A DNA stretch of 64,000 bases from Polytrichum commune (Eukaryota; Streptophyta; Polytrichopsida; Polytrichales; Polytrichaceae), in the NCBI GenBank assembly GCA_950295325.1, contig OX485806.1, positions 16,554,001 to 16,618,000 of the forward strand. The letters are read 5' to 3'. This document shows, in pieces, positions 21,594 to 59,600 of the stretch. The position numbers and the translations under genes were made by a program. Every line of letters starts with the position of its first letter. The first letter of the stretch is position 1. The notes under the pieces were generated by a model. It saw only the letters and a list, made by a program, of their open reading frames with translations. It had not been told where the DNA came from and ran no database searches.

Positions 21594-21613
21594 GTCTCTT
21601 CGGAGACATCTGA

Positions 21614-21645
<32 letters not shown>

Positions 21646-21697
21646 GGCCCCTGCGCAAGGATGACACGCACAAATCGAGAAATGGTCCAAATTTTTT
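21594..21697 (+). ncRNA. U6: U6 spliceosomal snRNA
   Basis: Full-length U6. The 5' stem-loop GTCTCTTCGGAGAC is followed by ATAAAATTGGAACGATACAG, then the ACAGAGA box, AGCATGGCCCC, and GATGACACGCACAAATCGAG, ending AATGGTCCAAA plus a T run (Pol III terminator at 21692-21697). The RNA base-pairs with the 5' splice site and with U2, and forms part of the catalytic core of the major spliceosome. A well-placed TATA box makes this the most likely active copy of the five in the window. Confidence 0.95.
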
Positions 21698-21890: not shown

Positions 21891-21944
21891 TTTTGGCATC
21901 CCAAGTGGTCCTAAAACGAGTTTGTTCCTTGATGAATTGGAATA

Positions 21945-22032
21945 GGTTGACATCTGATCAAAAGGGAATGATACAGAGAAGATTAGCATGGCCCTTGCAC
22001 CAGGATGACACGCACAAATTGAGAATCGCTCC
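21945..22032 (+). pseudogene. U6 snRNA pseudogene, 5' end missing
   Basis: It matches U6 from GACATCTGAT through GATACAGAGAAGATTAGCAT, GCACCAGGATGACACGCACA to gagaatcg. It lacks the 5' stem-loop, carries substitutions (AAGGGAATG, CCTTGCACC) and has no T-run terminator. It lies 250 bp downstream of the intact gene in the same orientation, so it may be a degenerate tandem copy or a retroposed fragment. Confidence 0.9.
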
Positions 22033-22642
22033 TTATTGGTTTGCCCTCCTTTTCCTTGCAACTGATCAATCAAGGTAAGAGAATTTCACACCTACAGATG
22101 GGTTTTGATAGTCACATTCCAAGGTGTTTGGAAGCGGTTGATTCTAAATTCTCAAAAAGAGATAGTGCAACAAGGCCGACTTGATAGAGGTTTACCATTC
22201 ACAGATCAATGGAAAGGATGGGCGAGCAACTATGAAGGCATACAATTAATCACTCACTAAAGGTTCAGCCCCATCTGAACATGTGCATGCGTATAATTGC
22301 AGAGATAGGGGGATGCAATGTGAGATGTGGGTTTTTAAGAAAAGGAACTACAGTAGAAGCGGGGAACAAACCAATCTCCTATTGGCCGTAGGCTTATTTA
22401 ACCACACAAACCACGGGGAAGAAGTGCCAGTTACATGTGAACTATAAACCGACACTAGGATAGTTTCCGGCAGCAAGTAGGGGAAACGACTCCCAAGTAG
22501 GTTTTGCAACACCTAAAGTAGACTGGTGTCAATTGGACACTTCTCTTTGTTTGCCCACTTTTCTTGTAGGATACAAAACACGCATGTATAGGTGTCCAGA
22601 TTATTCCTATGTTGGATTAACACAGGTGTACCTCAGGTTTAC

Positions 22643-24192
22643 TTAGGTCTTGAATGTCTCGATGGCCACCTTCTGGCCAGCTTGACAGTGCCCCAATTCA
22701 CCACTAATGAAGTAAACAATGGAGTAGCCTTGCAGATGGAATGCGTGGGGGCCCTCAGTCCATGAAGCCATTGGGTTGTTCACATTGCAGGTCTTGTAGT
22801 CTTCCTTGCTCACCATCAACACACTGTCGCTGCCGCGTGGATACTGAAAGTCTGTAGGATGATCAATCACACCATAAAGTAAGCGGGTCTTAAACAGACA
22901 CATTTCTCTTTGCACCCACTTCTCAGAGGATATGGAACACACAATTAGTGCAAGATGATTAGTGAATTCATGCCGTAGCTGTAGCCACTTTCCTCATGGT
23001 TGTCATAGCTTGTACAAATATCTTAGTTCATTGTCAAAATGAGGCTTCTGAGTTATTGAATTGATCATACAGGTCCCCCAGTTATCTTGACTATTGCGTC
23101 AGCATGCTTAACATGTTCTGAGCACGTAGTTCGATTTCTTTTCAACCCATGATGTCTTGTTGGTGGTTAATCTTAGATCCACACCCCACCATTCACCACT
23201 CAATAATAGGCACCTCTACCTTATATTTATTTTAGAGAATCCATTACAACTCCCTCTCAAGATTTTTCCTCTACTTATAAGTGTGGAATTCTTCATTGTG
23301 GCCCCATCGAATGGAACATGTCCTGTACTTTGATTTTTTGAGGGCCATCTCAACGTCTTTTTAAAAGTTGATTTTGGGTTAAGAAAGTCGAAACACCACT
23401 TACAAGGCACAAAGAACACCTCCATATAGGCACAAACAATCTTCCGTTTAGTGGATGTGCGCTTAACAATCTAACTTTCTGTGATAACAAGTAGCTAGGA
23501 AAGAGTTTGGACATTGATAGTCCTTTAGCATGTACATACTCTACTCAACACGTCAGGAAAATGAGAACACAACGTAAAATGTATCAATGACTTTGCAACG
23601 TAATCGTGACAAAGTTCTTTTAGTATTCAGCACTCTTACAATATGTTTGTATCTTGTAATTCCAAGCGGAACGGGTGGAAGCCTTCATCGACATGAGAAT
23701 TGTCTTAGTATATTGGTACTGGAATTGCATTGTAATATCACTCTAAATAACTTCAAATGGAACAAGCACCTACTCCTCCCATCAGAAGTTCGGATGTTAT
23801 TTCAATCAATTGAAGCTTCACAGTGACATATATATAAGTATAAATCTATTTGTTCACGTGCTACTTGGAGCCAATATACTACGTTACAAGTAGCCTCCAA
23901 GTAAGCAATCTATCTGTACATGTGCAAGTTTATGCAGGTTTGCAGTGGGGACTAAAGAATAAGAAAAAGACTTGAGATCGAATTAAAAGACGGACATTGA
24001 GAGGGACATACCCAGAAAGTCTCCGGTGACGTAAGGGAGGTGGCTGTGGTACCAGTCTGCATAAAACATTTGGTCATGCGGAAAGCCCCAGCCCGATGGG
24101 CCGCCCACGACATAGCTGGTCGCCATGGATCCTTGCAATTGCGTGAGCATCATGATGGCTGCCACCAACAAAGACGATCGAATATAAGCCAT
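22643..24192 (-). CDS. Secreted phytocyanin with a degenerate copper site (early-nodulin-like)
   Basis: Two exons, 24192-24012 and 22851-22643, joined in phase across a 1160-bp intron (donor G|gtatgt, acceptor ctacag|AC), give 129 residues. Residues 1-25 are a signal peptide ending near GSMA|TSY. The mature protein starts YVVGGPSGWG and fits the plastocyanin-like fold of phytocyanins, which are small extracellular or cell-wall proteins. Of the four copper ligands, the first histidine (usual HNV) is aspartate in GSDSV and the cysteine (usual YFIC) is serine in YFIS. The histidine of GHC is kept and the axial position is glutamine, as in stellacyanins. The structural cysteines (KTC and GHC) are kept. 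Copper binding is therefore unlikely, as in early-nodulin-like proteins, but there is no hydrophobic tail for a GPI anchor. Confidence 0.88.
22925..23220 (+). repeat. Dispersed TTGGAGCCACA-type repeat, copy inside phytocyanin intron
   Basis: The same ordered blocks as at 9590, 44925 and 49720 (AATTAGTGCAAGATG.TTAG, TGTAGCCACTTTCCTCAT, TTCATTGTCAAAATGAGG, GAGCACGTAGTTCGAT). It sits in the intron of the phytocyanin gene, antisense to it. Confidence 0.6.
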
Positions 24193-24482
24193 TGAGGACT
24201 TGAAACGCCAAGAAATTGATGCGATTAAAAAATCTGGGTGAAGTCAGACTTGACAGTCGGCCGTTGCGTGCAGATCAGACGGGGGAGTTGTGAAGCTGTG
24301 GAGAGGGAAATATTCACTAGACCTGCAATATTTAAGGTTTTTCATCCTCGGAGCCTCTCGGTAAGATCTTTGTATCTGTGTTCATGTAAACTGGGTAGCT
24401 GAAGGGTTGGTGAGGCTAGAGAATCCTATCAGATTTCGGTACTCCTCCGCTTGTTTCAATTGCAATCCAAGGAAACCGGTTT

Positions 24483-24965: not shown

Positions 24966-25017
24966 AAAAAATTTGGACCATTTCTCGATTTGTGCGTGTC
25001 ATCCTTGCGCAGGGGCC

Positions 25018-25049
<32 letters not shown>

Positions 25050-25069
25050 TCAGATGTCTCCGAGGAGAC
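24966..25069 (-). ncRNA. U6: U6 spliceosomal snRNA, second full-length copy
   Basis: A complete U6 sequence on the minus strand from GTCTCCTCGGAGAC to GGTCCAAATTTTTTT. It differs from the copy at 21594 mainly in the tetraloop region of the 5' hairpin, which still pairs. The Pol III terminator is present. Upstream there is only an ATTAATAT about 25-30 bp away and no recognisable upstream element, so activity is less certain than for the first copy. Confidence 0.88.
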
Positions 25070-27942: not shown

Positions 27943-30900
27943 TTATCTGATTGTCTTCAATGATCTCTTTTTCCGGCGTCCCCACTTCATTGGATGTTGA
28001 CGTGATGATGGGTTTTCAATGGATTTTCGGTTTCCATTGAATCTTTCCCCAATTGCACCACGGCAGTTTGGAGCCCCACAGTGGCATTTTACATTGGGAC
28101 CAAACTCCACATACCTTCACAAGAACATAGTATTACACTTCCGAGCTTCAAATAAAACCCCAATTTGTTCTGAAGAAGTTCCTTTCACTATGCCAACGTA
28201 CAAAAAACCTAGAGACTAATTGAATCCCCATGACTAGGTGAGATATTACTTGATTGCAGCAAGGATTAATTGATGGAAAAGCAAGGTTAAGAATAATACT
28301 TGTAGTCATAATTTAGCTCTTCACCCGCAAGAATGTCTCGTCCAGCAAAAACGCCCAGTCTGGTTTCACCATCGACACGCCTGCCACATACGTCAAAGTT
28401 ATACAATAGTACACAGTATATTTTGAGTTTCATCAAATTTTACTGATGTTTTCAGAAAACCCCTATCTATGACTACCTACTATTCTGAGGAAGTACCCAG
28501 TCATCAATAGCAAATGCACTCATATATTCATTTATCTTGGAATCCAAATGATGTCAATGATGACAGACATTTCTCCAGACTGCAGTTGGGTTTCAATTTA
28601 ATACAGTAATTTGCAGTATATTTTGAACTTGATTAAATGTTACTGATGCTTTCAGCATAAGTCCATCTACAGTAACTATAAATCTAAGGAAAAGCCCCCT
28701 CATCAACAGCAAATGCACTGATAGATGTGTTAACTTGAAATGTCAAAGGATATTGATGATGTCAGACCATTTTTCAAGCCTGCAGTTGGGTTGACAGCTG
28801 TGGTTAAGGTAGCGGGATGCATTGCCTTTCCTGGTGGCATCAATGATGAAATCTTTTGCAATCTCACACATGTAGAAGTTGCAAATGCTGCGACGTCCCT
28901 TCATCTCCCAAAGTCGTTTTTCGCACATGGCATCATCTATCACTGACAGTTCAGTAGAGGCTCTGTCAAATGACTATTTTATTCAGTTGATAGGTCAAAA
29001 GCTGCATGCGTTCTTTTAAGAATTGAGTGGGAATGCTTGATCTGCTTAGAGTAGAGCTGCTGAGTGTGAACTCTTGCATTCTCAAAGTGATACAGTGCAT
29101 GCAAACATAGTATGTCCACCTCATATGTAAGACTGCAATTCCCTTTTCAGTCTAGGCTTTGTGGATTCTGTGGTTACCTTCTCCTGTGTACTCGATAACA
29201 AACTCGTCTTTTTTTATGGCCTCCACAGCTACTGCACCCCAGCCACAATGCTGTGTCTGGCACCCACAAACTTGACTTAATAAGCATGACATCTGCAGTT
29301 CAAGGTGACTGTCTCCCAACTTTCACTAGCTGATAAATAATTATTAGTTCTCTTCTGGCTATGCATCTCAGTTTTTTAATGATAGAATTCTTTTCATCCT
29401 CCTCACTTTTCAGGCCACATGGTTCCCATACTATAATCCTTTGAGTATCTATGTACTAAAGTTCAGATCCCAAGAAGTAAAAATCAGAGAAGATATTAGG
29501 TCTCGGTCATCCTATTTGAGATGGACAGATAGAAACCTGCACATTCTAAAACGCCATACTCCATTTTGTTCTGATGATTCTAAGTTTCACAGTCCGCCAA
29601 CTTCAACAACAGATCCCAGGTGAGGAATTGCAAATACAACCTACAGCCTTGGAATGGATTGAACAATTAGAGTGTCAAAACATAAAACTCTACTGACCCG
29701 GCCTAGCAGAAAATATGCATATTCAAGTTGGAAGAAAACCTTACCTTGACAACTTTGAGACGTTTGTCTTTCCGGAAGGGTTTGTTGCAGCACTTGTCAG
29801 AGCACTTGCAGGCTTTGGAGCAGCTCATACTCTGCACCCTATCTCGACAACAAGCAGCATGCTCTCACTACCCTGATTCTTTTGATAACTTGGACCATGC
29901 CTTTATTGTCACAACAATCACTGTTGATTTTCATGAGCTAATAACAGCAACTCACCAGTACTCAAAGGGTAATATCTTTTCAATTGTAAGTCATCACAAA
30001 AAATCACAAGAAGTGGCAAACCTGCATTCACAATCATCCCCACACTCGTCTTGTGCTTTGCAAGAGCAACCAACACCATCATCCGCATCATCCCGCTTCT
30101 TCTTTATTAGAAAGACATCTGCATTACTGGTGAAGGATATAAACTCAACAATTCTCAAGTAAACTCTTGAAGATAGATCTCTTGTACAGCATATGGAATT
30201 CACTACAAAAGGATGGATTCTCATTACTACAGTTAAAACTTGAAGTTGTATTGCAGGGCAAGGATACTGCGTCTGATGAGGAAGTATGGAGGGGGCTCTT
30301 TATCATTCTCCATCACCTCCTTAATGAACTCTGTTGTGAGCATGAAATCTTCTTGTTGGTCTGGGACTGGTAGGTGATGAAAAAAATCCTGCTTAATGAG
30401 GCCACATCAGTACATTGGACGTTCTCTTGGAGTTTCCTTGTGCAGAAAGTAAACTTACATAGGATTAAATATTTGATGAAAATCAAGAGGAAGTCCATAC
30501 ATAAAGAGAAGTAACCAATTGGAAACTACAAACACTTTGATATTTGGTCTTTACTCGTTCAATTTCTGAGATCAAATGCATTCACTCAGGTAAACAAACC
30601 TTGAAAACATTCCTCGCAGTACTGAGCATTTATTGAAATCTGTCTTAGATAAGAGGGTTTGCAGAAGCATACCTGACAGTTGCTTGTTGGCGGCCTAAGC
30701 TGTAGAATATGAGAGAGATGCACCCACCACTCTGTGTCAGCACCCCAACCCATGTGCGGGTCAAGACTATCCCTCTTTACTCACATCCACCTATTCCTCC
30801 TCTTGGCAAAAACATGAGGTTTCCTGTGAACATTGCTCAAAATGATATTCTTTGCAACTCATTCTTTCAGTTGACTTCCAACACTTGTGCTCTATACCTC

Positions 30901-31885
30901 AGAGATTTGAGAAAATATGAGAGGAAACTTGTACTTGTTTCACGCAGACGTTTCTATGAAGAGAAATTGCTGTACTTGAATAATTTCAGAGCAAGACAAC
31001 TTGCTAAGGTAGTGCATGCCAAAACCAACACCCTAGAATCTTGCAGAATAGGTACATATTGATATCAGAGACTGTCCACCACCTTAACATCAGGCTCCTG
31101 TGATAGTTTTGGGTCATCTGCCAATAAAACTTCGAACCCTTATAACTTTTGCATACAGTATTCAAATAAGACATACTTTGGTGCAATGGAATCCCCTGTG
31201 AATTGCTATAGAGAACCATTTAATGAATTTTTTGTCTAATTGCTCAACACTTACAATGTCAGGCTTAGCACCATCTACCAATGCTTATATAATTTGTGGC
31301 ACCTTTTTTTAATTTGTCCATAACTTTTTGATGATTTTGCTGCATAAACTGCACTTAGAATGTGCAATGAGGTTGTAGAAGGCAAACCTTATCTTCCACA
31401 CTGTAAGCATGTCGCCAACATATGGCCCAGCCTGGTCTGTTACGGAAGAGAGTAGTGGACTCCAGACAAGGTATGCACTCTTCATGAGTAGCAATAGGGC
31501 ACCTTTCACAGCGCCACAATGGGGATCCTTGGTTTCTTCCACAAGCATAGCAAACCTGTGCCCACAAGTGATCTGTCAGATCATTTTAGTGGGCTATAAA
31601 AATTAACCCATTAAATTGTAATGTATCTGGAGAAAGACATATTGCAAATCAAGCGGATGAATCCTTAGTAGGTGAGCTCTTGATTGAAGATCTGCAAACA
31701 AGTCTTTCTTTATCAAGAGAATCTGATAGGTCACGCAATCTTGCCTTCCCAACAAGCTCATCCCATGCCTTGCAAACCACGCGACTTTGTCTGCATAAGT
31801 CGGGTACTGACAAGAAAGATAGCACATGCTCAATGACATCCAGTGGGAGCTTGCTACAAACAACTCTCCTTGAATCCATGGGTTC
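27943..31885 (-). CDS. ASHR3: ASHR3-type histone lysine methyltransferase (PHD-AWS-SET) with an upstream F-box exon
   Basis: Exons found, in order: 31885-31700 (F-box), 31555-31388, 30388-30268, 30118-30022, 29838-29745, 29256-29178, 28942-28768, 28380-28300 and 28114-27943. All junctions from 31555 on keep phase. The second exon encodes a zinc finger (CYACG..PLWRCERCP..THEEC..GWAICWRH). Next come LPVPDQQEDF, the cysteine-rich AWS region (GVGCSCK..CGDDCECR..SCSKACKC), and SET with the NHSCQPNC and ELNYDY motifs. The post-SET CHCG..NCRG and a basic tail MKWGRRKK close it. This order and spacing match Arabidopsis ASHR3 (SDG4), a nuclear chromatin methyltransferase of the ASH1 class thought to act on H3K36 or H3K4. 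About ten residues after VEDK, present in Arabidopsis, are not seen, so a microexon may be missed. The true N-terminus and any first PHD half are not located. Confidence 0.85.
28398..28798 (-). repeat. 200-bp tandem duplication across a SET exon end and its intron
   Basis: Bases 28398-28598 and 28599-28798 align at an exact 200-bp offset (acagtatattttgag at 28413 and 28613; tgcagttggg at 28581 and 28781). The right copy contains the last codons of the functional SET exon (PNCRLEK). The left copy lies in the following intron and keeps a relic reading PNCSLEK then Cys in place of Trp. The duplication therefore left a dead exon fragment downstream of the live one. Confidence 0.85.
30119..30267 (-). 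other. Likely U12-type (minor spliceosome) intron in the ASHR3-like gene
   Basis: The 149-bp intron starts GTATCCTTG, matching the U12-type donor consensus RTATCCTTT at 8 of 9 positions. Near its 3' end it has ATCCTTCAC, close to the U12 branch site TTCCTTRAC, with the presumed branch A 12 nt before the acceptor ATGCAG|AT, within the U12 spacing of about 10-15 nt. Splicing here joins R-R-A|AT to give RRN-VFLIKKKRDD, which aligns without gaps to the Arabidopsis family sequence. No U2-type GT donor gives that junction. Confidence 0.8.
31700..31885 (-). CDS. F-box exon, probably part of the ASHR3-like transcript
   Basis: A 62-codon phase-0 exon between acceptor tgccacag|GAACCC and a weak donor CTT|gtttgc. 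It reads MDSRRVVCSKLPLDVIEHVL then SFLSVPDLCRQSRVVCKAWDEL, a clear F-box (leucine-proline start, LCR..VCK.W core). F-boxes bind SKP1 and recruit SCF ubiquitin ligase. It lies only 144 bp upstream of the zinc-finger exon, and both are phase 0, so DKERL|VCYACG is a legal join. Alternatives are a separate F-box gene whose later exons are lost, or a first exon starting at 31879. F-boxes are not part of ASHR3 as I know it. Confidence 0.55.
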
Positions 31886-32159
31886 CTGTGGCATTGATAA
31901 AGAATAAATTGAGTCCAATGCCACACTTTTTGAATGTTCAAAGCAACCTCTGAAGAGATGACAAGGAATCAGAACACAGGACACAGAAACTCACTACATG
32001 CTACGAAAACCATGCGCAATGAATGAACAACTTTGGCATATTTGAAAGCTACACTCACACAGATGATTGATCACAATGCAGCTCCAAACAGAACATGTTT
32101 TAAACTGCAGTTTTCACACATTGTGTGCTTCTTTCTTGCTTGACAGTGTTCTTTGCAAG

Positions 32160-33175
32160 AGGTCCCCTGGTTCAGGGTTTAGAGTTTTGCATTTTCACTT
32201 TCAAGTGCAAATTATCTTGACAGTGAGAATCTAGTCCTTATCAAATTGGCACTCAATAAATTTGCATTCAAAGTATAACAACATCCAGAGTTGCTCAACC
32301 TATTTATTTGCTGGCCACTGCTGATGACTCGGCTACTTGGCTACACCAAGACCCTTCATCACCTTGGAATCCCCGGAGTAGCCTGCCATGCTGCATAAAA
32401 TTCGGCTGACTTCCAACCTGCCATGTTCCACCATTTTACGACTGAATGCAAAGTAGGGGGCGCTATGTCGTTATATAAGAAGTAACATTGCGAATCCCTA
32501 TCTCTAAATATAAAGAAATGAGCACCTCTTGTCACTGCCTTTCAAGATGTTAGTCAGCTTGCACATCCACCCTTGAAGTCTATATACAGTATTTTGTTTC
32601 AAAACACGATTTCTGCTAAAAACACTTTGCACAAAGACAAGAAGTGTAAAACTGTGGTGGGCTCAACTGATGGTCACACTCTTTAGACAACCTACATTGA
32701 TCAATTCAGTAATTGAGGATTGTCAAGTTATCCTAATTCTCACGAAAACAGAAAGTTTCTGCCACACCAGGTCCTCCCAGTTCAGAAATTAGGGTTGTGC
32801 GTACTCAGCATTTTCAAGTGCAAATTTAATTTGACAATGAGAGCGAGTCTTGTCCTTATCAAATTTGCACTTCTTAATTGCGAGATCGGCAGAACACATT
32901 GAAAGCTGATCAACCAATTTATTTTTTAACCACTGCTGATCGCTACTTCGCACCCTTGGCTAAACCAAGACTCTTCTTCACCTTGGAATCCCCGGAGTAG
33001 CCTAGCCTGCCAAACTGATTAAAAATTTGGCTGACTTCCGAACTTGCCATTTCCCACCATTTGTAAACTGACTGACTGCAAAGTAGACAGCCTTATACTA
33101 TGTCCCTATATATGATAAGTAGCGCTGAGAAACCCTAGCTCTAAAGAGAACCAATGGACACCTCTTGCATAGAAC
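32160..33175. repeat. Direct repeat pair, about 390 bp each, 5' of the methyltransferase gene
   Basis: Segments 32160-32545 and 32768-33175 align in order. Shared blocks include TTTCAAGTGCAAATT, CACTGCTGAT, ACCTTGGAATCCCCGGAGTA (identical in both) and TTCGGCTGACTTCC-like. The fully conserved 20-plus-bp core around AATCCCCGG is unusual given the divergence elsewhere. No coding frame is shared. The pair lies in the upstream part or a long leader intron of the ASHR3-like gene. Confidence 0.75.
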
Positions 33176-33375
33176 AACATATGTCTTTCAACATATCCCC
33201 TGATGTAATCCAAGTTCTCAGGTCCAGATTTTAAAACAAAGTGCTCTTACAACATGTGTCTCACACAAATTAAACACCAGGAAAAATCAGAGCTCTCAAG
33301 CTTCACTTACATACTTCGGTGCTATCAATGCACCCAGTACCTCGCCAATCGAAAAACCACCTCCTATAAGAAGAA

Positions 33376-33960
33376 AAACTGTTCGAAATTACTCACCTGG
33401 CAGACCCTTCGTCCAAAATAATTCTCGCCAGATTTTTGCCCCAAATTCTGTCACTACCGCATTTCGGAAGAAGAGACAGAGCATCTAAGGCACCATTTCG
33501 TCCCCCATTGACATTGAAGAAACCTGATGTGGTTGTGTTTAACCTCAAAAAATAGAAAATAGAAGAGGTAGCGAGAGTGTAAACAAAAAAATTTAGAAAT
33601 GGGATAGAAATCTCTTAGAAGGGTGGCAACATTGTGCATTGTGCAATCGCAGAGAGAGGAGACCGCGAGGAGAGCCAGCAGGAAACGAGGAAGACGATGA
33701 CGGGCTTGTGACGGGTGGGTTTTCTGGACCAGAACCCGGACCGGACCGGGCGCGGGATTCCAAAACCTAATGCGACCCGGCCCGTGATCAAGCACCCGGG
33801 CCGCGATAAAGGGACGCTTGGTCATTGGACACAACCTGGGCCTATAATAAGTGAAGTGGCATCGAGGCATAAGGTAATGTGGGCCTTTTGTGGTCACTCT
33901 TTCTTTAAAGAGAGGCGATTATCATATACAAGTGTATTTCTCATTCATCCAACATAAAAA
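33376..33960 (-). promoter_or_regulatory. Possible promoter and leader exon of the ASHR3-like gene
   Basis: This is the first GC-richer unique block upstream on the minus strand. It carries accggaccgggcgcggg-like sequence at 33740-33760 and a good donor GCCAG|gtgagt near 33400. A 147-codon ORF through it (33897-33454) looks incidental. It is a reasonable place for the transcription start, but I cannot connect it by splicing to the F-box exon. Confidence 0.35.
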
Positions 33961-34548
33961 CTTGAAAAATTATAGGTTTCATTGTCGAATCATCTCAAAT
34001 AATTTTGAATAGACTAATTCTTGAAGCTAATTCCAGTGTCAAATCAACTATAAAAAAAATTTAAATCTCCAAACGGCATATTGTTACATGTCTCTTATGT
34101 TGGATGGATGATGCCCCGATCACACCAACTTTCCGTCAACTTCCGGATGTGAAATAGTTGGGGATGTGATGACGGCCGGATGCCAAGTTGTTCACACCAA
34201 CATCCCGGTTTGGTCAACATTTTGGCGGCTGGTGGCCACCGTCATGACCGGTCAAATGAGTTGGCATAGACTTTTAAGGTGTAGCAACCGGAATAGAGTG
34301 ACCGGCAGAGGCTAATATTGGAGGGGTTACCGTTTTTGGTGGTGGGACCCACATGTCCGACGGACATCCAAACGTGGATGTCAGATTATAGATGGTGGCC
34401 ATCTCCGTCGCCGTCATACATCATGGACGGCGATGGCCCACCATGAAAATCACTATTAGAGACATATTCATCTACTGAAAATGAACTTTAAGTTTGGTGT
34501 GATCGGGGCACTCGTACACTCGTATACGAGAATTCCCTCTCTTCCTCT
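33909..34548. mobile_element. MITE (ATCCAACATA family) split by a nested element
   Basis: The left arm (agagaggcgattatcatata ... tcattcatccaacata) starts at 33909. The right side (tatgttggatggatga) reaches 34111 and resumes after the nested element with ctcgtatacgagaattccct at 34517-34541. The intact relative is at 44140-44363. The order of events is therefore MITE first, then insertion of the 34112-34510 element. Confidence 0.7.
34112..34510. mobile_element. Terminal-inverted-repeat element, nested in another MITE
   Basis: It begins TGCCCCGATCACACCAA and ends with the exact reverse complement TTGGTGTGATCGGGGCA, a perfect 17-bp inverted repeat around about 365 bp. The interior is GC-richer than its surroundings and rich in CCGG/GGCC and gatggtggccatc-like short palindromes. 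No transposase frame is present, so it is non-autonomous. A partial relative is at 15000. I could not identify a target-site duplication. Confidence 0.85.
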
Positions 34549-35030
34549 TTTTCATAAGCCACCTATATTTGAGTGGTATATGGCAAGGCTCGTACTCTGA
34601 TATGTGTGATTACATTGACCCATGCTAATTTATTGACAGTCCGTATTATTTCAATAATCGTTTCCACAACAATAACAAAATATACCTAAATAAGTGTATT
34701 TGTGGTTGCTATACGGATGACTAAATCAATTTGTAAGTTTTTGTGATTTGGTTTTTGAGCCGAGGTGATTTGTGTGAGTAAAATAATCAACCTATTTGTG
34801 AGGTGAACCTAATTGCACTTGTCAATGTAGTTAAGAACATAGTTTGAAAAATATATGTGTTAAGACAAGATGGATTGTGTGATCAAAATGTACAAAGCAA
34901 CCTTTTAGGTTCATGCCATGGCTATGTTAGACATTAGTGACAAGTTGAACAATTTGACATTATTCATTTTTTGTGAGATTTTTATGTGATTGTCCCAAAG
35001 ACAGTGGAGGAGTCTTTTTATTTGGCACGC

Positions 35031-35319
35031 CTTTTGGTCGGGAGTAGGTTGTTCTACATACAACATTTTCCATGTTCGGTAAGTTTTCGGTGCATGATTG
35101 GAGTCAATGTGGAGGTTTGGATGAAGAGGTTTTTATATCAGTACATTGAGGGTTGAACTCGTTTTGGCTTGTCAAGAGTTGCTAAAATGTGTTCCGCCCT
35201 CATTGAACCAATATGGAATGTTTATTCATTCGCACCTCCACACTAACTCCACGATGCTCTAGAATTTTACCAAACATGGAATATGTTGTACGCAAAAACA
35301 ACCAACTCCCGACTAAAAG
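35031..35319. mobile_element. Foldback MITE with about 90-bp inverted arms
   Basis: The left arm CTTTTGGTCGGGAGTAGGTT and the right arm ending ACCAACTCCCGACTAAAAG pair for the first 23 bp with two mismatches. Pairing continues with gaps through ACAACATTTTCCATGTT / AACATGGAATATGTTGT and on to GTGGAGGT / ACCTCCAC. Arm copies also occur at 21784 and at about 48235-48335. Confidence 0.75.
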
Positions 35320-35453
35320 ATTGATGCATATTGTTGTTGGGCCTCTCTAATTGAAATATATTTCTCGGTTGATTATGAACATGAAAGGTCAATGTCATAT
35401 TAAGGAGGATGTTCCTTGCAATATTGCCCCTAAAGCATGTGTTCACACCTATG

Positions 35454-35673
35454 TCCGGGAAGAACCGGCGGTTAGTTTACAGATGAACCGGTTAAGTTTG
35501 AGAAATAACCGGTTGAAGTTGGAGACTTTAGGAGAATCACCGATCATTTTAGAGGAATATATAGAATATGCCCCAATTTAATAAAGGAAAACCGGAGGAT
35601 GTCAACATGTAACCGACTAGATTTAGAATCACTAGGATCTTGACCCATTATATATGCCCAAAGACCTCCCGGG
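35454..35673. mobile_element. CCGGTT-rich MITE, copy 3
   Basis: It contains agaaccggcggttagttta, AACCGGTTGAAGTTGGAGAC, AATCACCGATCATTTTAGAG and AAACCGGAGGATGTCAACAT, in the family order. The ends here are CCGGGAAGA and CCTCCCGG. It directly abuts the next element. Confidence 0.75.
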
Positions 35674-35675
35674 CG

Positions 35676-36089
35676 TTGGTTCACACCAGTGTTCAAGATT
35701 GAAGCCCTCATATGAGTTTCATTTTGAAGGGCTCTCAAATTTCAACCCTTCAGTGGAAGGGCCGGTTCAAATCCAAGGCGTCAATCCAAAGAATATAAGA
35801 ATGAAATACAAAACTTGTATTAAACTTGTGTATGAATTATACGGTACATGTTTTTAGTACAATGTGAAGAACTAAGAATCAACCATGTAACTCCACTTCT
35901 TGTAGTGACAATACCCTACGCTTGTTAGTTCTTATGGCGGGCAGATTGTATTGAGGACTTCAAGTGATGTCTTCACTTTCAATTTGGGGTTGCGTTTTGA
36001 AGGGCTATTTTGAGAGAGGTATATTTTGAAGGGCCAAATCGCGTTTGAAGGGCATTGAAGACTTCACTCTTGAACACCGGTTCACACCA
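35676..36089. mobile_element. MITE with GTGTTCAAGA..GAAG inverted ends
   Basis: The left end ggttcacaccaGTGTTCAAG then ATTGAAG pairs with the right end CTTCACTCTTGAACACCGG (read inverted: CCGGTGTTCAAGAGTGAAG). The interior carries repeated GAAGGGC. No coding frame is apparent. The ends share a TTCACACC core with several other elements in this window. Confidence 0.6.
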
Positions 36090-36713
36090 TTTACTCTGTT
36101 GGATTAATTGTTGGAAAAACAGACAATTTCTACCATCAAAAACCGAGGAGTCTGAGACACAATTATTTTCGGAAGTGCAATACTTTTCACCCAATAAAAG
36201 CAACTGCTACAAATGGCAAACTCTGTAGTTGATGGATGAAAAGGTTCTAAGGTAGGATGATACTCTTTAGATCACATATGGAGAGCGAGAATTGACATTC
36301 ACAAACACATATCTCACGTCCATCCAAGGCATAAAACTTGACACCCTATACATTTGCAACCAATTCATCTCCAAAATACACATAGATCAATTCAGGGTCT
36401 TTAACCTAAAGCGTCTAACAAGCCCATATCGGGCCTCTCTAACCAAACCCAAAAAAAAAAAATAGCATAATTGAGTTGCATGCTTTCATTTTTAGCTGAT
36501 TGTGTCAAAAGTGACCCTACCTAAAATCAACTTCTTTTTCATATGCATTATTTGATTAAGTTGAACATGTTGATATTATTGAATGTGTAAAGCTCAAATA
36601 TGCAGCTTGAGCTACTCTTGGATGCAAATACATACGTTGTATTTCGATCATCGATATCTAACATGAATATATAGTTTATTTCTCTCCTTGACATAAGACA
36701 ATGTATACCATCG

Positions 36714-36919
36714 AACGGGGAGAACTAACAGCTCGTTCCAGACGAACCGGTGGGTTTTGAGAAATCCACCGGTTCAAGTTGGAGTCTTTAGGAGAATTAC
36801 CGATCACTCGAAAACCATCTACAAAATACACCTCAAATACAGCAAAACCGGAAGATGTCAACATGCAACCAGTTGGATTTACACGTTGACCGACTATATA
36901 CGCCCAAAAACTTTCCGGG
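36714..36919. mobile_element. CCGGTT-rich MITE, copy 4
   Basis: It starts AACGGGGAGAAC, has GAACCGGTGGGTTTTGAGAA, AATTACCGATCACTC and AACCGGAAGATGTCAACATG, and ends CCAAAAACTTTCCGGG. It is the same family as 7467, 8340 and 35454. Confidence 0.75.
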
Positions 36920-39900
36920 CACAAACATAATGTATACAACAACACAATAAGAACCCAAACACACAAACATGTAGAACACATGAAATTCCTTTTGGAACCC
37001 GGTGACCAAAACTCGTATGAAGTATGTATGTGGCCATATATTGAGATGTCGGATGAACGAGAGGTACGATCCAATGAGACAGCGCCAGTTCACATGCGCC
37101 AACTGGGCTAAATCCCCCCCCCCCCCCCCCCCCCCAAATTTGAATGTAGCATGGGGGAGCCTGCAGAATGTTTTGTGTCGGGAGCTGGTCAAAAGGGCCT
37201 CATTGGGTACATAGGGATACGGATGCTTATGTAACTCTCCTCCTTAGTAGCTAGACCCGGTCTCCTCAAACTCTGTGCGGGAAGGGGCAAAATAGTAGTA
37301 TTCTAAAGAGGCTCAAGGTACGCACCTTTGGTGGGGTGGATTAATTGAATGCAATTGAATGCGGGAATTGACTCACCTCACCCCACCCCACCCCACCGGC
37401 AACTAAGTTATGTTGTCTCGGATGGGATGGGATCGGATCGTGCCAAATTGACGTTTCGAATTTCATGCTTCGGAGTTGTTGAGATGCGAAAGCTATGATA
37501 CATGCCACTATTTGGTGTAATTAGTGTGGGTTTGTGTCGTTCGGAGTTGCGTGTTGCTATGACCTTTTTTCGTGAGTGTATCGTTGTTTTTTTTACCTAA
37601 ATAACGCCCCCTCCCCACCTGACTGTAGCGAAGCTTAAAAGTTGGTTCTAAAAACACGGCCTCCACACCATCGACATTATCCAGTGCCGAGCCTAGTTGG
37701 TGAATGATGTGGCATGGCTTAAAAGTGGAGGTTTTAAGCCTCCAGCACCGATCTTCCCATTGGTACCTAGACATGAGGCAAGGATATAGGACTTTTAAAA
37801 GTGTCGCCTCCCGCCCTTGTGATTGGTTGCTTTTTAGTTTTAGCTATGAGGGCACAAGGAGCTCCATTAACAAAAAACCGATGGTAAGACAGATGAGTAG
37901 TAAGGGATTTGGGGATGGGACAAAAAGTATTCAACATTCATTGCTGGGTAGATAAAACCATGAACATGTGTGAAAGCTACTTAACTTAAAACCTACTCAA
38001 AAATCTCCAGAGCAAGTTCTTGTAGGTGCATTGGGATAGCCAGATGCCTCCCCTATAACCGAGGGAACTTTACCCAGGTTTTAGGAAAGACTTTGGTTAT
38101 TTGGTCAAGTCAGGTGGGGAGGGGGCATAACATAAGTACACTAAATATGATATTTAGTGTTTGATTGTATTTAATGTTGTTACCACCCTACCTTGCTCAA
38201 CATGAATTTTCAATTCCTTGACAATTAGGGTTAGACATAAATGTGCCGCTATCTTCCCTATTGTCATCTTCCTTCATGTGAAGCATGGGTTTCATTAGAC
38301 TTGAGATTTTAGGGATGGCGCCCCACCTTCCTACTCACTGATCTCTCATCTGTTGAAGTTGACGGCGTCTTTTTTTCATATCCTTATTAACACTAAATTC
38401 AAACATGTAACTTCCACATATTACCATAGTTAAATTTATTGTTTGAGTTTACATTTAATGTTACTTACTTTCATAAAGTTATTGGCATTTAGTGTATGTG
38501 TTTGTATTTAGAGTATCAAACAATAAATTTGTTTTTTTAGTGTAGTTAGTATGCACACCAAGGAATATAATATAACTTACTTGGTTAAAAAAATGTTGGT
38601 AAAAAGCTACTGCAACATGTACCCTGAATGGTAACCCACACTAATTAGTCAAAACAATGTGAGAGATTGAAGTGAAGATTCTTTTCCTCTTCAAACGGTT
38701 ACAAAAGCCCTGTAAATTGTGGTTGATCATGGAACTTATAGCTGAAAAATATACACTTGCACATCTGATCCAATGTCAATGTAACATGTGTCTTTGAGTC
38801 ACGGGTAGATCACTCCATTGTCAAGTTGAACACCACGTGCGACCAAAAAAAATCTTCTTTTGGTAAGTTGCACCACCAAAATGGGTCAAAATTTTATCAA
38901 ATTTTTTTCATGAGTAGATATACACAATACCTATGACATAGGTAAAAGTGGTAACTAAATTTGATGATTTTTCATAAAACATACCGTTTCTAACTAGAAT
39001 GACATAGAATTGAACTAAAACATTTATTAAAAATATAAAGATGACTAAAAATATAAAAAAGATATAAAAAAGATACTATCAATGGTTATGTATATGTAGA
39101 AAAATTATCATAAATTTTAAAATCATATATGGCATGTAATATAGGGGTAGCAAACTTTGTCCGCACGTTGTGTCAACTTGACAATGAAGTGACCTCCCCG
39201 TGCTTTGAGTTGCTCGTACATAACTACACTAATATGTGCAATTACTATTTCAAAAATCTTTACCATGTTAACACAAAAACATGATTTTCATTTTGTTATG
39301 TTGTGAATGTCGTATGGATGGATAAACAAAGTTATAAAGGACATGATTTGGTTTTGACCCAAAATGATTTGAATCGGCAAAGAGTCAACCTATTTGGGAG
39401 GCCAACCTACTTGCAACATATCATCGTGCAAACCTTGCCATTTACCACTCAAATTTAGGTGTTTTAGAAAAAATAAAATGAAAAGTGACCGCATAAGGTT
39501 TCATACCTTAACGTCATGTTTCCAAAATCTCCACGCCATGTACCTAACTTCAAGCACTTTAGACTTCTCCGTAGACACAATTACGGTAGAGGGTGCTTAA
39601 ACCAACACTTTAAGCTATTGCACATACATATGGCTATGTGGTTGATAAATTTAAACCAAAATCATATTAGCCTTTGAGCTAACAATAGGTACAAAGAAGA
39701 AGAAGAATTTTTTATGAACATTCAAAGTCAAAACCACTAATGTAGCTTCCTTAAACCAATCCTTGGACCCCTTGTATGACGACCTTGCATATGATGAGGA
39801 CCCCCACCTTCATTGCCTAGAGCCAACACAAGACTGTTCAGAACCAGCACAACATAGTTGGGTACTAGACCCAAACGGTGCGCAAAGCCAAATGGCCACC

Positions 39901-40603
39901 TCCAGGATCCCACCCAGTTTGGTTGCAAAACCGTCACCTTGCATCCCATGTATCAACCCCCTTTGTGCTTTGTGGGCCTACCTCCTTGGCTTTGTGAATA
40001 GAATGGCTAGAAACGTCCCCCCTCCCCCCTCGGGCACTTCTACACCATGGAGAACGGTTCATTATTGTCATAATTGTCATTATTGCAATGTTGACTTTGT
40101 GTTTGCTTTACAAACCTCATCAATATCACGTACACTATGGCTGCCACATGCGTGATATAAGGAGGATAGAGTGTAATTTTGGAACATGCCATGGATTGCA
40201 TCGTTGTAGCCAGAGTATCTGTATCTTTAGAATACTTGACTATGCCACTTTTGCTTTTATAATGCAGTTGAAAATTAGGCACAATTCATAGACTTTGCCT
40301 ATCAAGCTTGCAACTTCAGTTCAAAAACCTGCTTGACAGCCTACAAATGTGCCACACTTACTGCAGAAGACTGTCACAAAACAATTGGATTCATCTCTCA
40401 ATAATCAACATGAGAAAACTAGTTTCAATGTCTTTTTAAAAAGACATAGCTCTATTTTTCAAAATTCTAACCAATCTATATAATTGCTCTAGAAGAACCT
40501 TGTGGATTCAACCCTTTCAACAAGAGTCAGGCCATGAATGCGTGTGTATATATGATTCACTCTATTTCAATACAATACAAATCTGGTCAAGCTTTAAACA
40601 CAC
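36920..40603. other. Intergenic, no gene seen
   Basis: It holds a 22-C homopolymer (37114-37135), a CACCC repeat near 37378-37398, and the palindrome ACACTAAATATGATATTTAGTGT near 38138. A short segment at 40077-40190 resembles 5490-5580. The 130-codon ORF at 39763-40155 is proline-rich, has an antisense rival and no domain I recognise. Otherwise the stretch is AT-rich and featureless. Confidence 0.5.
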
Positions 40604-43431
40604 TCAAGATAGCATGGCCTTCTCCAGCACCTCCTTCAACTGCCCGCTTGAGAATGCCTCTGCAAAAAACAGGTATGAGCTTCAACCTACTGGAAAAGCA
40701 ACCAGACAGTCCATTCGTGTACAACAGAGGTGATTGCTTCACATGTCATAAGGTACAAGGGCCTTATTTGGTCACTCTTCTTGATTGAACACCTACATTT
40801 AAATGGTATATCTCAAGTCTTGTAGTCAAGAATGGACACCAAAAAGACACATGTTACAATGGGATTGGACTATGTGCTCACAATATAGCCAACATACTAG
40901 GTTCAATAGTTAATAGAATTGTGAGGGCCCCCATGATCCTTTAAAAAGAACGAGAATCTTCACTTTGTCCTCTCATAACTTTTGCATCTCAACTCCCATT
41001 CCGAAACTTGGAAAGAAATTCTTTGTGACTCACAATTGCTAACCAGATGAGACAATTCCTAATTCGCTCCAACAGTCAATGATTCCATTATATGTGGGGT
41101 TGGAAGTGTCACAATAGGGCCATGTACCTTACTAGTATAAAGACACAAATATGAACAATTCTGAATCTAGAACATCAAACAGCAACACATGAGAAAACTA
41201 TCACAAGATGTGCAGATTGTGATAAAAAGACGATTGCTTGTGTAAGAAAGGCTTGGAGATGCTTACCAAGAGTGATATCACATCCACCAAAAAATTCACC
41301 ATCGATGTATAGTTGTGGGAAGGTAGGCCAATCAGAATATTCCTTCATGCCCTGCCGCAGAGAGTCATCTTCTAGTATATTGACAGTTTCAAAAGGGACG
41401 TTCATCTGATTGAGAATTTGCACACATGTGTTTGAAAAACCACATTGGGGAAACATCTTGTTTCCCTTCATGAACAACACGACCTTGTTCTCACTGAGGT
41501 ACTTGTCTAAGGACTCCTTCAGCTCCGGGGTTAGAGCTGTGAATCCAAACAACCCAATGAACTCAATTGGTCAGACTTGAACTAGGTTCGAACGAATTCA
41601 GGGTAGGAATTTAGCAACAGGATGAAGAAATTGAACAAAGTGCCAGAAGACAGAAAACAAAAAACAACCCCTAAAAGAAATTGGAAACCATGCAGGTCAA
41701 AACTAGGATGTTTGTGAATACGTTCGGACCATATAAAGGGCGCAGAAACAACATTGCACAAGTAGTAGCACCATGGCTAAAAGAAGAGTTCAGATAAGTA
41801 TGTGTCCTAACATATTGACAGAGATTGACATCTAAAATAGGCAGGCAGAAGACAACTTCGGACAGAATCCCACCTCCTGATGGGTGACACGGGACAGAAG
41901 CATTAGAAGTGATTTAGAGACAACCACAAGACCCACATGCATACACTAAGTCCCAGTATGTAAACTTATGTGCAACCCAAAACCTTAAAATCCCCAGAAG
42001 CTCCAGAACAACACTATGTCTTGAAAGGCAGATTTCAGATGATGGTAAAGAAAGCATCTTAAAAAATCTATCTCCTGTCACATTTGCAAAGATCAAAATC
42101 TAAAAAGGCATGTAGAAGGCAGCCAAAATCCCACCTCCTGAAGGGTGACACAGGACAGATTCCTTAGCAGAAAGACAGCTTAAGACAAATCTAACCCTCA
42201 CATCCATTCTCAAAGAATGACGATCAAATAATTCCAGCTTAAAAGTTCGCATAATTGCACAAAACCATTTCCCCCACCCAAAATGCACACACTAAGTGCC
42301 AATCCACAAACCCATGTGCAACCCAACCCTTAATCAATTCCCACAACTTCTAGAACCCACTCCAGAACCACATGAGAAAGATGATCGCCACCTCCAGTAA
42401 CCCACATGTATCATAGAAGTATGGCAGTCCAAGAATCCAGCTCAAAAAATCTGATATTGCACGACACTATTTCCCTCACCCCAAAATGCACAACCATTAA
42501 ATCTACGTGCAACCCCAAACCTTAAAAATTACCAGAACCTCAAGAACCCCATTTCCAGAACCACAAGTAGCAAACACCATATCTCAAAGATACATTTCAG
42601 ATGCTGGCGAAGTAAGAATCTTGGAGCATTTATCTCATATCGTATTCTCAAGGATTGAAATCTCAAAAGGCAGGTAGAAGATAATTTGGAACAAGATTCC
42701 TCGGCAGAAAGCCTGCCAGGTTAAGACAAATGCAACCCCTTCATCCATCATAAAAGAATGACAGTCCAAAATTCCAGCTCAAAAAATTCACACAATCGCA
42801 CTCCACCATCTCCCCCATCCCAAAATTGACAACCATAAACCCATGTGCAACCCCGAACCTTAAAAATTCCCATAACCACAAATAGCACAAACCATGTCTA
42901 AAAGCATAATCTCAAATGATGGTGAAGTAAGAATCTCAAAACCTCGTTATTCCTATCTTATTCTCAAAGATTGGAATCTCAAAAGGCAAGTAGAAGACAA
43001 TTCGGAACAAGATTCCTCGGCAAAAAGCCTGCCAGCTTAAGACAAATGTAACCCCCACATCCATCATACAAAGAGATGACAGTCTAGAACTCCAGCTCGA
43101 AAATTCACGTACGCCCCAATCCACAAACCCATTTGTAACCCCAAACCTTAATCATTCCCAAAACCTTCAGATGCCCAATTCCAGAACCACATGGCAAAAG
43201 AAGGGGATCCTAACCTCCGGTACCGCCCGAGGCTCCGAAGCTGCACCGCGCGGATTTTTTATTATTCCCAAGTTGCGAGGTGGAAGCGGCGAATGCAGGG
43301 ATGCGGACGGCTTTGCCCTTCCAGGCGCAGCGAAGGAAGGTGGATTGTTGTGGAGGTGCGGGGCCAGCGAATGCTTGGGGAGATGTCGCCACGCTGCTGC
43401 TGACGTGCAGGCTGCGCATGGCGGTGGCCAT
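40604..43431 (-). CDS. GRXS14: Chloroplast monothiol (CGFS) glutaredoxin, GrxS14-like
   Basis: Exons 43431-43215, 41536-41267 and 40659-40604 join in phase (GGA G|gttagg; cacag|CT; CTT G|gtaagc; tttgcag|AG) to give 180 residues. Residues 1 to about 70 are serine/alanine-rich and basic, a chloroplast transit peptide. The glutaredoxin fold follows: KVVLFMKGNKMFPQCGFSNT with the single active-site cysteine in CGFS, then the WPTFPQLYIDGEFFGGCDIT glutathione-binding loops. The last exon supplies the C-terminal helix (EAFSSGQLKEVLEKAM). Plastid CGFS glutaredoxins bind a glutathione-ligated 2Fe-2S cluster and pass it to acceptors, and they lack ordinary disulfide reductase activity. A GA run at 43557-43578 lies in the promoter or leader. 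The first intron (1.68 kb) is filled with tandem repeats. Confidence 0.95.
40780..41010 (-). repeat. Dispersed TTGGAGCCACA-type repeat, inverted copy in glutaredoxin intron 2
   Basis: Read on the minus strand it has GTGAGCACATAGTCCAATC, a tgttcattcttgactacaag-like block and TACCATTTAAATGTAGGTGT, matching the family in order. The orientation is opposite to most other copies in the window. Confidence 0.5.
41800..43200 (-). repeat. Intronic tandem array, unit about 280-315 bp
   Basis: Blocks such as AAAAGGCAGGTAGAAGA (landmarks at about 41835, 42103, 42666 and 42981) recur. So do GACAAATGTAACCCCCACAT-like, CCCCCACCCAAAATGCACA-like and AACCCATGTGCAACCC, in the same order. The gap between the second and third landmarks fits one more diverged unit. 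About five imperfect units make up most of glutaredoxin intron 1. Confidence 0.75.
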
Positions 43432-56671: not shown

Positions 56672-59600
56672 TCACACAGTTACTTGCTTGGTAGCTAGAC
56701 CTCCTTTGAGGACACTTGCTTTCCCACAGCACTTCTTCCATTTCTGTTGCGATCCGCAAGCGCAGCTTTCATTTCGACCTTGCTTGAGTTTCGTGCCCCC
56801 AGATCGGTCGACAAGAATGGTGGATGGAACTCCATTTTCTCTTGTACTCTCCAGAGGAACACTTGATTTCTTCATGGACACACTTTTCCCATTGCTATGG
56901 TTTCCATTGCTGGTGATTGGGCTGCTCAATCTGCCATTACCAATACTCATTGTGTCCACCACCTCTTTGACATTTGCAACGATTTCATTTGCAGATTTCC
57001 CAGCTGGACTGTTCCGTTCCGTTTCCTTCCAATGAACTTTGCCATTACTGTCACCAACACCATTAGAGTTTGCAATAGTACTGGAGTTTGAGGATTTGAC
57101 AGACCTAAGTCTTGGGCTTTTGTTCAAAAATCCCTGAGCAAATAATGGCTTTGGAGTTTGTGCCTTAGCCTTGACAGCTGCTGCAGCTGAAGAAAGCTCT
57201 TCCTGTGTGATTTCCTGTGAGCTTTTTTGAGGAGAGTTGACAACACCCAATTTTGCACCAGCAACAGACTCTTCAACAACTTCCTGCAAGCCTGAGGAGT
57301 TCAGCGAAGACTTCACACACAATGAACCTCTGCCAGTTGACACAGCTTCCTCCATATCTGAGGAATTCACCAAAGGCTTCACACTCAATGAACCTCTGCC
57401 ATTTGACACAGCTTCCTCCATATCTGAGGAATTCACCAAAGGCTTCACACTCAATGAACCTCTGCCATTTGACACAGCTTCCTCCATATCTGAGGAATTC
57501 ACCAAAGGCTTCACACTCAATGAACCTCTGCCATTTGACACAGCTTCCTCCATATCTGAGGAATCCTCCAAAGGCTTCACATTTGATGACACAGCTTCCT
57601 CAGTTCGTTTACTGAAAGCTCCCTCCATATCCAAGGAATTCACCAAAGGCTCTACACTTAATGCAGATTCACCAGTGGGTTCACTGTCCATGTCCAAGAA
57701 ATTTGGCGAAGGCTTTACAATTGATAAAGCTCCACCATCATGATCATTACAAGCTTCCTCCATGTCTGAGGAATTCGGCAAAGGCTTCACACGTGATGAA
57801 GTGCCACCATTGGGATCATTGTTGCGAGCTTCCTCCATGTCTGAAATTCTTGAAAACGCCTCCTTTACAGATGCAACAGCATCATCAGCAGGCTCCTCAT
57901 CGATACCTTCCTCCATGTCTGAGACGGATGCTTCAAAATTGTATTCATCTTCTTCACCAAAGAAGTATACTCCAGGCTGTGTAGAGATTGGCTTCACAAC
58001 CACATACGGAGTATCATCGTCCAATAGCACATCATCATATGCCTCCGTGAGATGAATTTGACCATTCTCAATGCCCTCTGTCAACGGCCCGGGAAGTTCT
58101 TCTATGAGTTTCCGGTTCTGATAGAACTCTGACACTGGAAATGATCCTCCTCCTGAGGTGGATTCAGCCAAGAAGGAATCCACACTAACTCTAGGAAACC
58201 TCAGTGACGACGACAAACTTTTCCCTCGTATGAAGTCATTGTCGTGTTGATCGATGCTTGTCGAACACATGGATTCCAACTCCAGGAGAGCTTTTGACGA
58301 AGGGGGAGAATGACTTCCACCATGATAGTTGTCACCTTGAGAGTCCAGTGGTACAGGTACTGACCTTGCAAAATCATCAGGTACCACCTCACAGGCTGTG
58401 TCTGATAACATTATATTATCTACACACTCACTTCCTTCATCAATCTCCATGGTTTCACAGTCTCCTGAACCCACAGGCCCCAACCTCTCAGGAACATTCT
58501 CTATGTGTTGGCGTTTGGCTCGAGCTGAGGGCTCATCTGTCCAGAGATCTGCTTCAGCGGATTGCTGCTGTCCATCGCTCTCTACAGTAGAAAGGTTGGG
58601 GACTGCCAGTTCTTGGCTGGGCACAGAAGAAAAAAATTTGGATGAAACTAGATCTACGTCACCATCAGACCATGCAGCTCGGGATGATGAAGTCCTCCAA
58701 GAATCAAGTACTGGAGACGAACAAGGGGAAGACCTACCGCCACCCTCCTCCAATGGGAACATGGGCAATTGGGCAATATCCAAAGGTCTTGGCAGTGGTA
58801 GAGACAGACAATCATCATGCATGCGTTTCGCTCCTCCCCTATCTGGGCCATCACTTGGTGAGTCCAGAAACAGGTCGTAATCCTCATCATTATTGCCAAG
58901 CAAGGATGATATGGAGCCTCCATTCTGAGAACTAAATGTACAACCAGGCAAGGCAGAGGTGCCACTGAGGGAGTTCAACAATTGTTCATAGGAATTGGAC
59001 TCCACTGACAGTTGGACTTCTTCAGACACATTAGAAGGCTCCATGTCAGTATCCTTAGTTGCAAAAGACCCCCCAACCTTGTAATGTGCTGCATCGGAGC
59101 TATAATCTGGCCTCTGGGGTTGATCTGCCATGTGAACAAAGTGGACTTAGATAGTCTTCTGAGGTCATATGATTCATACTAGAACTCTACGAGGTTATCT
59201 TCATAGGGGGAGATTGCAGTCAGATTCATTAGATCCAGTGAATGAACATTCCAAGAAAGAGATGAGCCAAGAACATAAAAAACCATCTACAAGTTAATCC
59301 TAGTAAGAACACAAGTGGCCAACTCTGAGTTCTGGACCAAAAATCACCATGCACTTTGTACAAACACACCCAAAAACCTAAGTATCCAGAGACAAGCCTT
59401 ACCTTGGTCAATGACTCTGTTCCCCACTCCATTAGCCTCCACAGCCACTAATTCCATATTAGTGGAATGATCTCTGCAAAGGTCAGTAGGTGCAGGTATA
59501 GCTCCTGATTTGGGCAAAATAATTGAGCTCCGTTGAGATTCAAGACTAGATAAGCGGTTCAAATTGCTAAGAGTTGCAATTGCAGCTGACGGCAAAGCAT

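Follow-up and report, generated by a model that had tools for sequence, protein, structure and literature searches.

ASHR3 (SDG4; KMT3 group 3) is a plant H3K36 methyltransferase for which H3K36me1, and possibly H3K36me2, activity has been reported (PMC6986063, PMC6198463). Its clade is marked by a PHD finger near the N-terminus (PMC6986063, PMC3264562), and rice and Brachypodium are reported to have members that depart from this (PMC3264562, PMC6986063). F-boxes have been described on plant SET proteins of other classes: in cotton, GrKMT1B;4 combines an F-box with an AWS domain and GrKMT7;1 an F-box with a SET domain (PMC5013442), and KMT1B;4 is placed in the SUVR3 group (PMC3264562). An F-box-like domain has also been reported in JmjC proteins of the JMJD6 group in barley (PMC10178440). 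In animals, the KDM2 plan brings together an F-box, a PHD finger and a histone-modifying domain, and KDM2B binds a CUL1 ligase via its F-box (PMC7000146).

Here we analysed a 64,000-nucleotide stretch of Polytrichum commune DNA (the window, in whose coordinates all positions are given), in which an F-box exon lies 144 bp upstream of where the exons of an ASHR3-type methyltransferase can first be recognised, with strand and phase (phase 0) in agreement. A first-pass annotation had proposed that the two belong to one fusion protein, and its coordinates and strand for the F-box exon, the 144-bp gap (31699-31556) and the phase-0 join were all correct. The locus is best read as one gene for F-box, finger, AWS and SET, with the splicing predicted from the DNA; we give a single minus-strand gene, in which the F-box is joined to the ASHR3-type methyltransferase, a probability of roughly 0.55.

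The ASHR3-type methyltransferase exons

In the refined gene model, nine exons make up a single open frame of 390 codons that ends at 27943, and all of the introns are GT-AG. Exon borders were set by alignment to a provisional Arabidopsis ASHR3 sequence; this kept the join of F-box and finger exons from the first-pass annotation and refined several of the borders downstream of it. The exons that follow the F-box exon are:

31388..31555, minus strand: zinc-finger exon, CYACGRNQG...CWRH, PHDvar_NSD-like, no Met
30268..30388, minus strand: linker exon, ends IRR(N), non-consensus donor GCA|gtatcc, from alignment to the provisional Arabidopsis ASHR3 sequence
30022..30118, minus strand: AWS exon 1, from alignment, within the stretch matched to NSD structures
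29745..29838, minus strand: AWS exon 2, from alignment, within the NSD match
29178..29256, minus strand: SET exon 1, HCGWG
28768..28942, minus strand: SET exon 2, NHSCQPN
28300..28380, minus strand: SET exon 3, ELNYDY
27943..28114, minus strand: post-SET exon, CHCGAPNCRG and the stop codon

When the refined exons were joined, the Pfam SET profile matched at E 4.8e-25. The nearest solved relatives were NSD1, NSD2 and NSD3 (E ~1e-45, over residues 78-302 of a first-pass 336-aa model), with which the model shares the AWS-SET-post-SET order and a PHDvar_NSD-like finger. NSD1, NSD2 and NSD3 are larger animal proteins that carry a PWWP domain and several PHD fingers and are not known to have an F-box. 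An NSD/ASH1-type AWS-SET-post-SET catalytic part is present at the locus, its AWS assigned by alignment only, with no Pfam AWS match at E <=0.1. In the first-pass 336-aa model, the finger matched PHDvar_NSD at E 8.6e-05 and 22.9 bits, below the curated cut-off of 27. Both points, on the AWS and on the finger, are corrections to the first-pass annotation.

From the finger onward, through AWS, SET and post-SET, the model is colinear with the provisional Arabidopsis ASHR3 sequence, the stretch from finger to linker being shorter here, and SET exon 2 is 71% identical to it. By eye, NHSC, ELNYDY and the post-SET cysteines are retained, so the enzyme does not look dead. Its assignment to ASHR3, rather than to another ASH1/NSD-type protein, relies on the alignment. 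As regards the SUVR3 type, the sequence aligns along ASHR3 from the finger onward and its SET part aligns best with NSD structures; a provisional SUVR3 sequence itself gave a weak match to the F-box-like profile (E 0.02, below cut-off). Viral contigs were scanned once with the first-pass 336-aa model, which lacks the F-box, and no relative was confirmed.

Several other features were observed in the window. The intron after SET exon 2 contains a direct duplication with a period of ~200 bp (28393-28792), and by eye the second copy repeats the 3' end of SET exon 2 (PNC.LEK-like, near 28590), where exon and intron meet at a different border. A plastocyanin-like coding stretch on the minus strand (Cu_bind_like, E 3e-10; 22673-22849) follows some 5 kb beyond the methyltransferase on its downstream side, the probable first exon of which, by eye, lies within 23983-24243. 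Three U6 snRNA matches, two strong and one weaker, fall within 3.5 kb: 21594-21696 (+), 21936-22040 (+) and 24967-25069 (-). At 57292-57581, a tandem repeat of 66 bp, a multiple of three, is present in 4.4 copies inside an 824-codon minus-strand open frame that ends in a SEC-C motif.

The F-box exon and the place of the first PHD finger

31700..31885, minus strand: F-box exon, 62 codons, EPMDSRRVVCSKLPLDVIEHVLSFLSVPDLCRQSRVVCKAWDELVGKARLRDLSDSLDKERL, Pfam F-box-like match

Over its 78-aa open stretch, this exon matched PF12937 (F-box-like) at E 7.2e-08 (32.5 bits, cut-off 24.3) and PF00646 at E 3.5e-05 (24 bits, cut-off 20.5); both Pfam profiles exceed their curated cut-offs, and the exon thereby carries the motif of F-box proteins. 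When 9.6 kb of the minus strand (31556-41200) were read in three frames, the F-box was still the sole Pfam match at E <=1, with PF12937 at E 3.8e-06 (above cut-off) and PF00646 at 20.2 bits (just under 20.5), so the match is not due to chance. The F-box named in the first-pass annotation is thus real. A PDB sequence search with the F-box exon gave 15 matches at E <=10 (best 0.0098), and 13 of them bear the name of an F-box protein or TIR1. The codon score of the exon (4.47) exceeds that of 80 of 82 comparison ORFs, which are presumed, not proven, to be non-coding, and its alternative open frame scored -0.45. An AlphaFold prediction of the F-box stretch alone, made without relatives, was of low quality (mean pLDDT 50.4). 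Going upstream on the minus strand, the first coding stretch to be recognised beyond the F-box encodes a glutaredoxin (41178-41570).

There is some doubt about the upstream border at 31885, since the frame of the F-box stays open back to 31990 and can also be entered through a pyrimidine-rich acceptor at 31949. From acceptor 31885, the ATG at 31879-31877 is the first in frame; if the exon extends upstream to acceptor 31949, the ATG at 31894-31892 lies inside it.

At the downstream side, read-through past the donor reaches a stop after 16 codons (48 bases), giving a 76-codon form that ends in DSSA, and an F-box-only peptide made in this way is possible. This continuation of the frame is what would be expected of a separate small gene, or of a fragment of an F-box gene, adjoining an ASHR3 gene that has no 5' end of its own, that end having been lost by rearrangement or through an assembly fault. 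The missing first PHD finger, described below, is also what 5' end loss would predict. We nevertheless consider this explanation improbable. The first-pass annotation had pointed to an F-box gene with its own downstream exons as one outcome that would speak against fusion, and no partner domain for such a gene (LRR, kelch or other) was found on the minus strand from 31699 down to 22500 at Pfam E <=1, where a three-frame scan returned only SET, PHDvar_NSD and plastocyanin. The gap to the finger exon is just 144 bp and, when tested for six poly(A)-like words, contained none of them, a weak test given how loose plant signals are. GC skew has its closest strong change of sign at about 33.5 kb, where it would fit a promoter; this, too, is a weak sign.

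The typical first PHD finger of ASHR3 was sought in three ways. By motif, on both strands of the whole window, the full motif matched only the remaining finger. A tblastn search with the provisional Arabidopsis ASHR3 sequence gave, for the first-PHD part, chance matches only, the best of them (E 2.4) on the other strand. Pfam found no PHD in three frames of the minus strand at 31556-41200, a type of scan that could miss a PHD split over short exons and that did not report the AWS either. Matches to the short motif CPxH were scattered and were rejected as chance. In the provisional Arabidopsis ASHR3 sequence, the first finger itself falls just under the PHD_NSD cut-off. The finger present at the locus, also below cut-off, would correspond to the second, NSD-variant finger of ASHR3. 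With the first PHD not found, the F-box occupies its place, and this may represent either a true domain swap or an ASHR3 gene that has lost its old 5' end.

The proposed join to the finger exon and competing first exons

31556..31699, minus strand: proposed intron, 144 bp, CTT|gtttgc ... cacag, A+T 62.5%
33397..33523, minus strand: candidate 5' exon, ends at donor CAG|gtgagt, which scores 7.63 on the matrix

In composition, the 144-bp gap falls among the eight introns of the model (A+T 59-66%; exons 50-56%). A CTGAC branch-like site lies 21 nt before its acceptor, and by the same rule such a site is present in four of the eight introns.

The donor CTT|gtttgc had already been described as weak, and we agree: it scored -2.51 on an approximate plant matrix, a score that 39% of the minus-strand GTs in the window equal or better, and it is weaker than six of the seven donors downstream in the gene. 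The alignment fixes the position of six of the seven firmly, that of the finger-exon donor less so. The one weaker donor, GCA|gtatcc of the linker exon (-5.3), is among those firmly placed. Two of the seven also read gtttgc (one firmly placed, the other that of the finger exon), and G at -1 is missing in two of the seven. We regard the weak F-box donor as a fair worry that counts against the fusion, though not a decisive one.

The finger exon could not begin a protein by itself. Upstream of 31555 its frame runs into a stop after 10 codons, being open only to 31585, and the first Met after the F-box part sits in the next exon; with no Met in the finger exon and the frame closed upstream, a 5' exon must supply the start. 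We counted the candidate first exons in 31620-34300 that run from an ATG to a GT, are at least 30 nt long and are in phase with the finger exon; phase 0 has 52 of them and phase 1 has 42. Read from ATG 31894, the F-box frame had the highest codon score of the 52 phase-0 candidates (6.11) and the third-highest sum of codon and donor scores (3.60); read from ATG 31879, it ranked ninth by codon score (4.10) and eighth by the sum (1.59). The top sums in phase 0 belong to two candidates of 23-24 codons, at 33050-32982 (6.17) and 32434-32363 (5.47), both ending in GYSGDSK (donors 2.56 and 3.14; codon scores 3.61 and 2.33, respectively). In phase 1, one 21-codon candidate had a codon score of 6.40, and three candidates had sums above the 3.60 of the F-box exon (4.29, 4.17 and 3.71). 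That rival exons outscore the F-box exon on these sums lowers the odds of the fusion, and alternative first exons for the methyltransferase gene are possible. Scores alone do not single out the F-box exon; its domain does, and the three-frame scan of 31556-41200 detected no Pfam domain in any rival first exon. We consider the fusion protein of the first-pass annotation partly supported.

Upstream of the F-box exon, a 56-bp direct repeat (89% identical) occupies 32336-32391 and 32955-33010, and each copy encodes GYSGDSK, behind which comes a donor of fair strength whose phase suits the finger exon.

The F-box exon might be skipped, or be a left-over, with the methyltransferase starting elsewhere, and two kinds of route would allow this. 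An exon at 33484-33397 (MLCLFF...KGLP), ending at CAG|gtgagt, could be joined to an acceptor at 31572 in frame with the finger exon, or a short exon ending in GYSGDSK at 32982 or 32363 could be joined to 31555 in phase 0. All are phase-legal, the first uses the best donor of any candidate (7.63), and the GYSGDSK candidates have sums above that of the F-box exon. However, by codon score the MLCLFF frame ranks only 34th of 42 (-3.34), the GYSGDSK stretches are two copies of a repeat, no rival exon encodes a Pfam domain, and an intact F-box frame would be left belonging to nothing. On this balance, skipping seems unlikely, but it is the alternative to which we give the most weight. That alternative splicing or alternative starts yield forms both with and without the F-box, somewhat like the long and short forms of KDM2, appears very improbable; two acceptors (31555 and 31572) enter the finger frame and the F-box donor is weak, as such a scheme would have it.

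The possible 5' exon at 33397..33523, which lies close to the sign change of GC skew, could also serve the fusion. Its donor, the strongest among the candidates, could be spliced to acceptor 31885 or to 31949, the richer of the two in pyrimidines, and the join to 31949 adds a 41-codon frame that is in phase with the F-box and contains no ATG. The exon may be untranslated, may code in a frame that has no start codon, or may begin a form from which the F-box is skipped; it is probably an untranslated leader.

Relation to known architectures and proposed function

For the single-gene reading, we propose that transcription would begin on the minus strand at about 33.5-33.7 kb and continue past 27.9 kb. 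In the mRNA, a probably untranslated 5' exon would be joined to the F-box exon, the 144-bp intron removed, and the finger, AWS, SET and post-SET parts would follow. The product would be an ASHR3-type H3K36 methyltransferase with an F-box at its N-terminus, where the first PHD finger normally stands. If the join is made and the F-box binds SKP1, the protein could act as an SCF receptor that ubiquitinates chromatin proteins contacted by its finger and SET part, or the F-box could govern turnover of the methyltransferase itself. The likeliest function, should the join be real, would be that of an H3K36 methyltransferase tied to SKP1-CUL1; SCF recruitment by the putative fusion protein is something that we infer. 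A bolder and rather doubtful proposal is that an F-box has replaced a histone-reading PHD, bringing an H3K36 writer and an SCF ligase to the same nucleosomes as a plant mirror image of KDM2.

The alignment suggests that the locus belongs to the ASHR3 branch, from which it departs in having an F-box where ASHR3 has its N-terminal PHD. GrKMT1B;4 (SUVR3/SDG20 group) and GrKMT7;1 are, as here, plant SET proteins with an F-box, but they belong to other SET classes, and the passages of PMC5013442 examined name no PHD-type finger for either. The plant JMJD6-group proteins carry an F-box-like domain on a putative chromatin enzyme, which is a JmjC/cupin enzyme and not a SET protein. KDM2A, KDM2B and FBXL19 of animals likewise combine an F-box with a PHD on a chromatin protein; in contrast to this locus, they have a JmjC demethylase domain or none, lack SET, and carry the F-box C-terminally together with CXXC and LRR. 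Pfam scans of the locus found no JmjC, CXXC or LRR, so the model does not qualify as a KDM2 protein.

Among the matches listed in the literature searched (titles and passages), none reported an ASHR3-branch protein with an F-box, and papers that mention both ASHR3 and the F-box refer to the latter in other contexts. The 'new architecture' of the first-pass annotation was nonetheless too strong a term, as an F-box with AWS or with SET is reported in cotton (PMC5013442) and the KDM2 plan is known from animals (PMC7000146). The combination of F-box and SET in plants is already published, and an ASHR3-branch case with a finger would be a new variant of it. If true, a single plant protein would both write H3K36 methylation and recruit a ubiquitin ligase, as a counterpart to the KDM2 eraser proteins of animals, and this would suggest that F-boxes joined plant SET proteins more than once.
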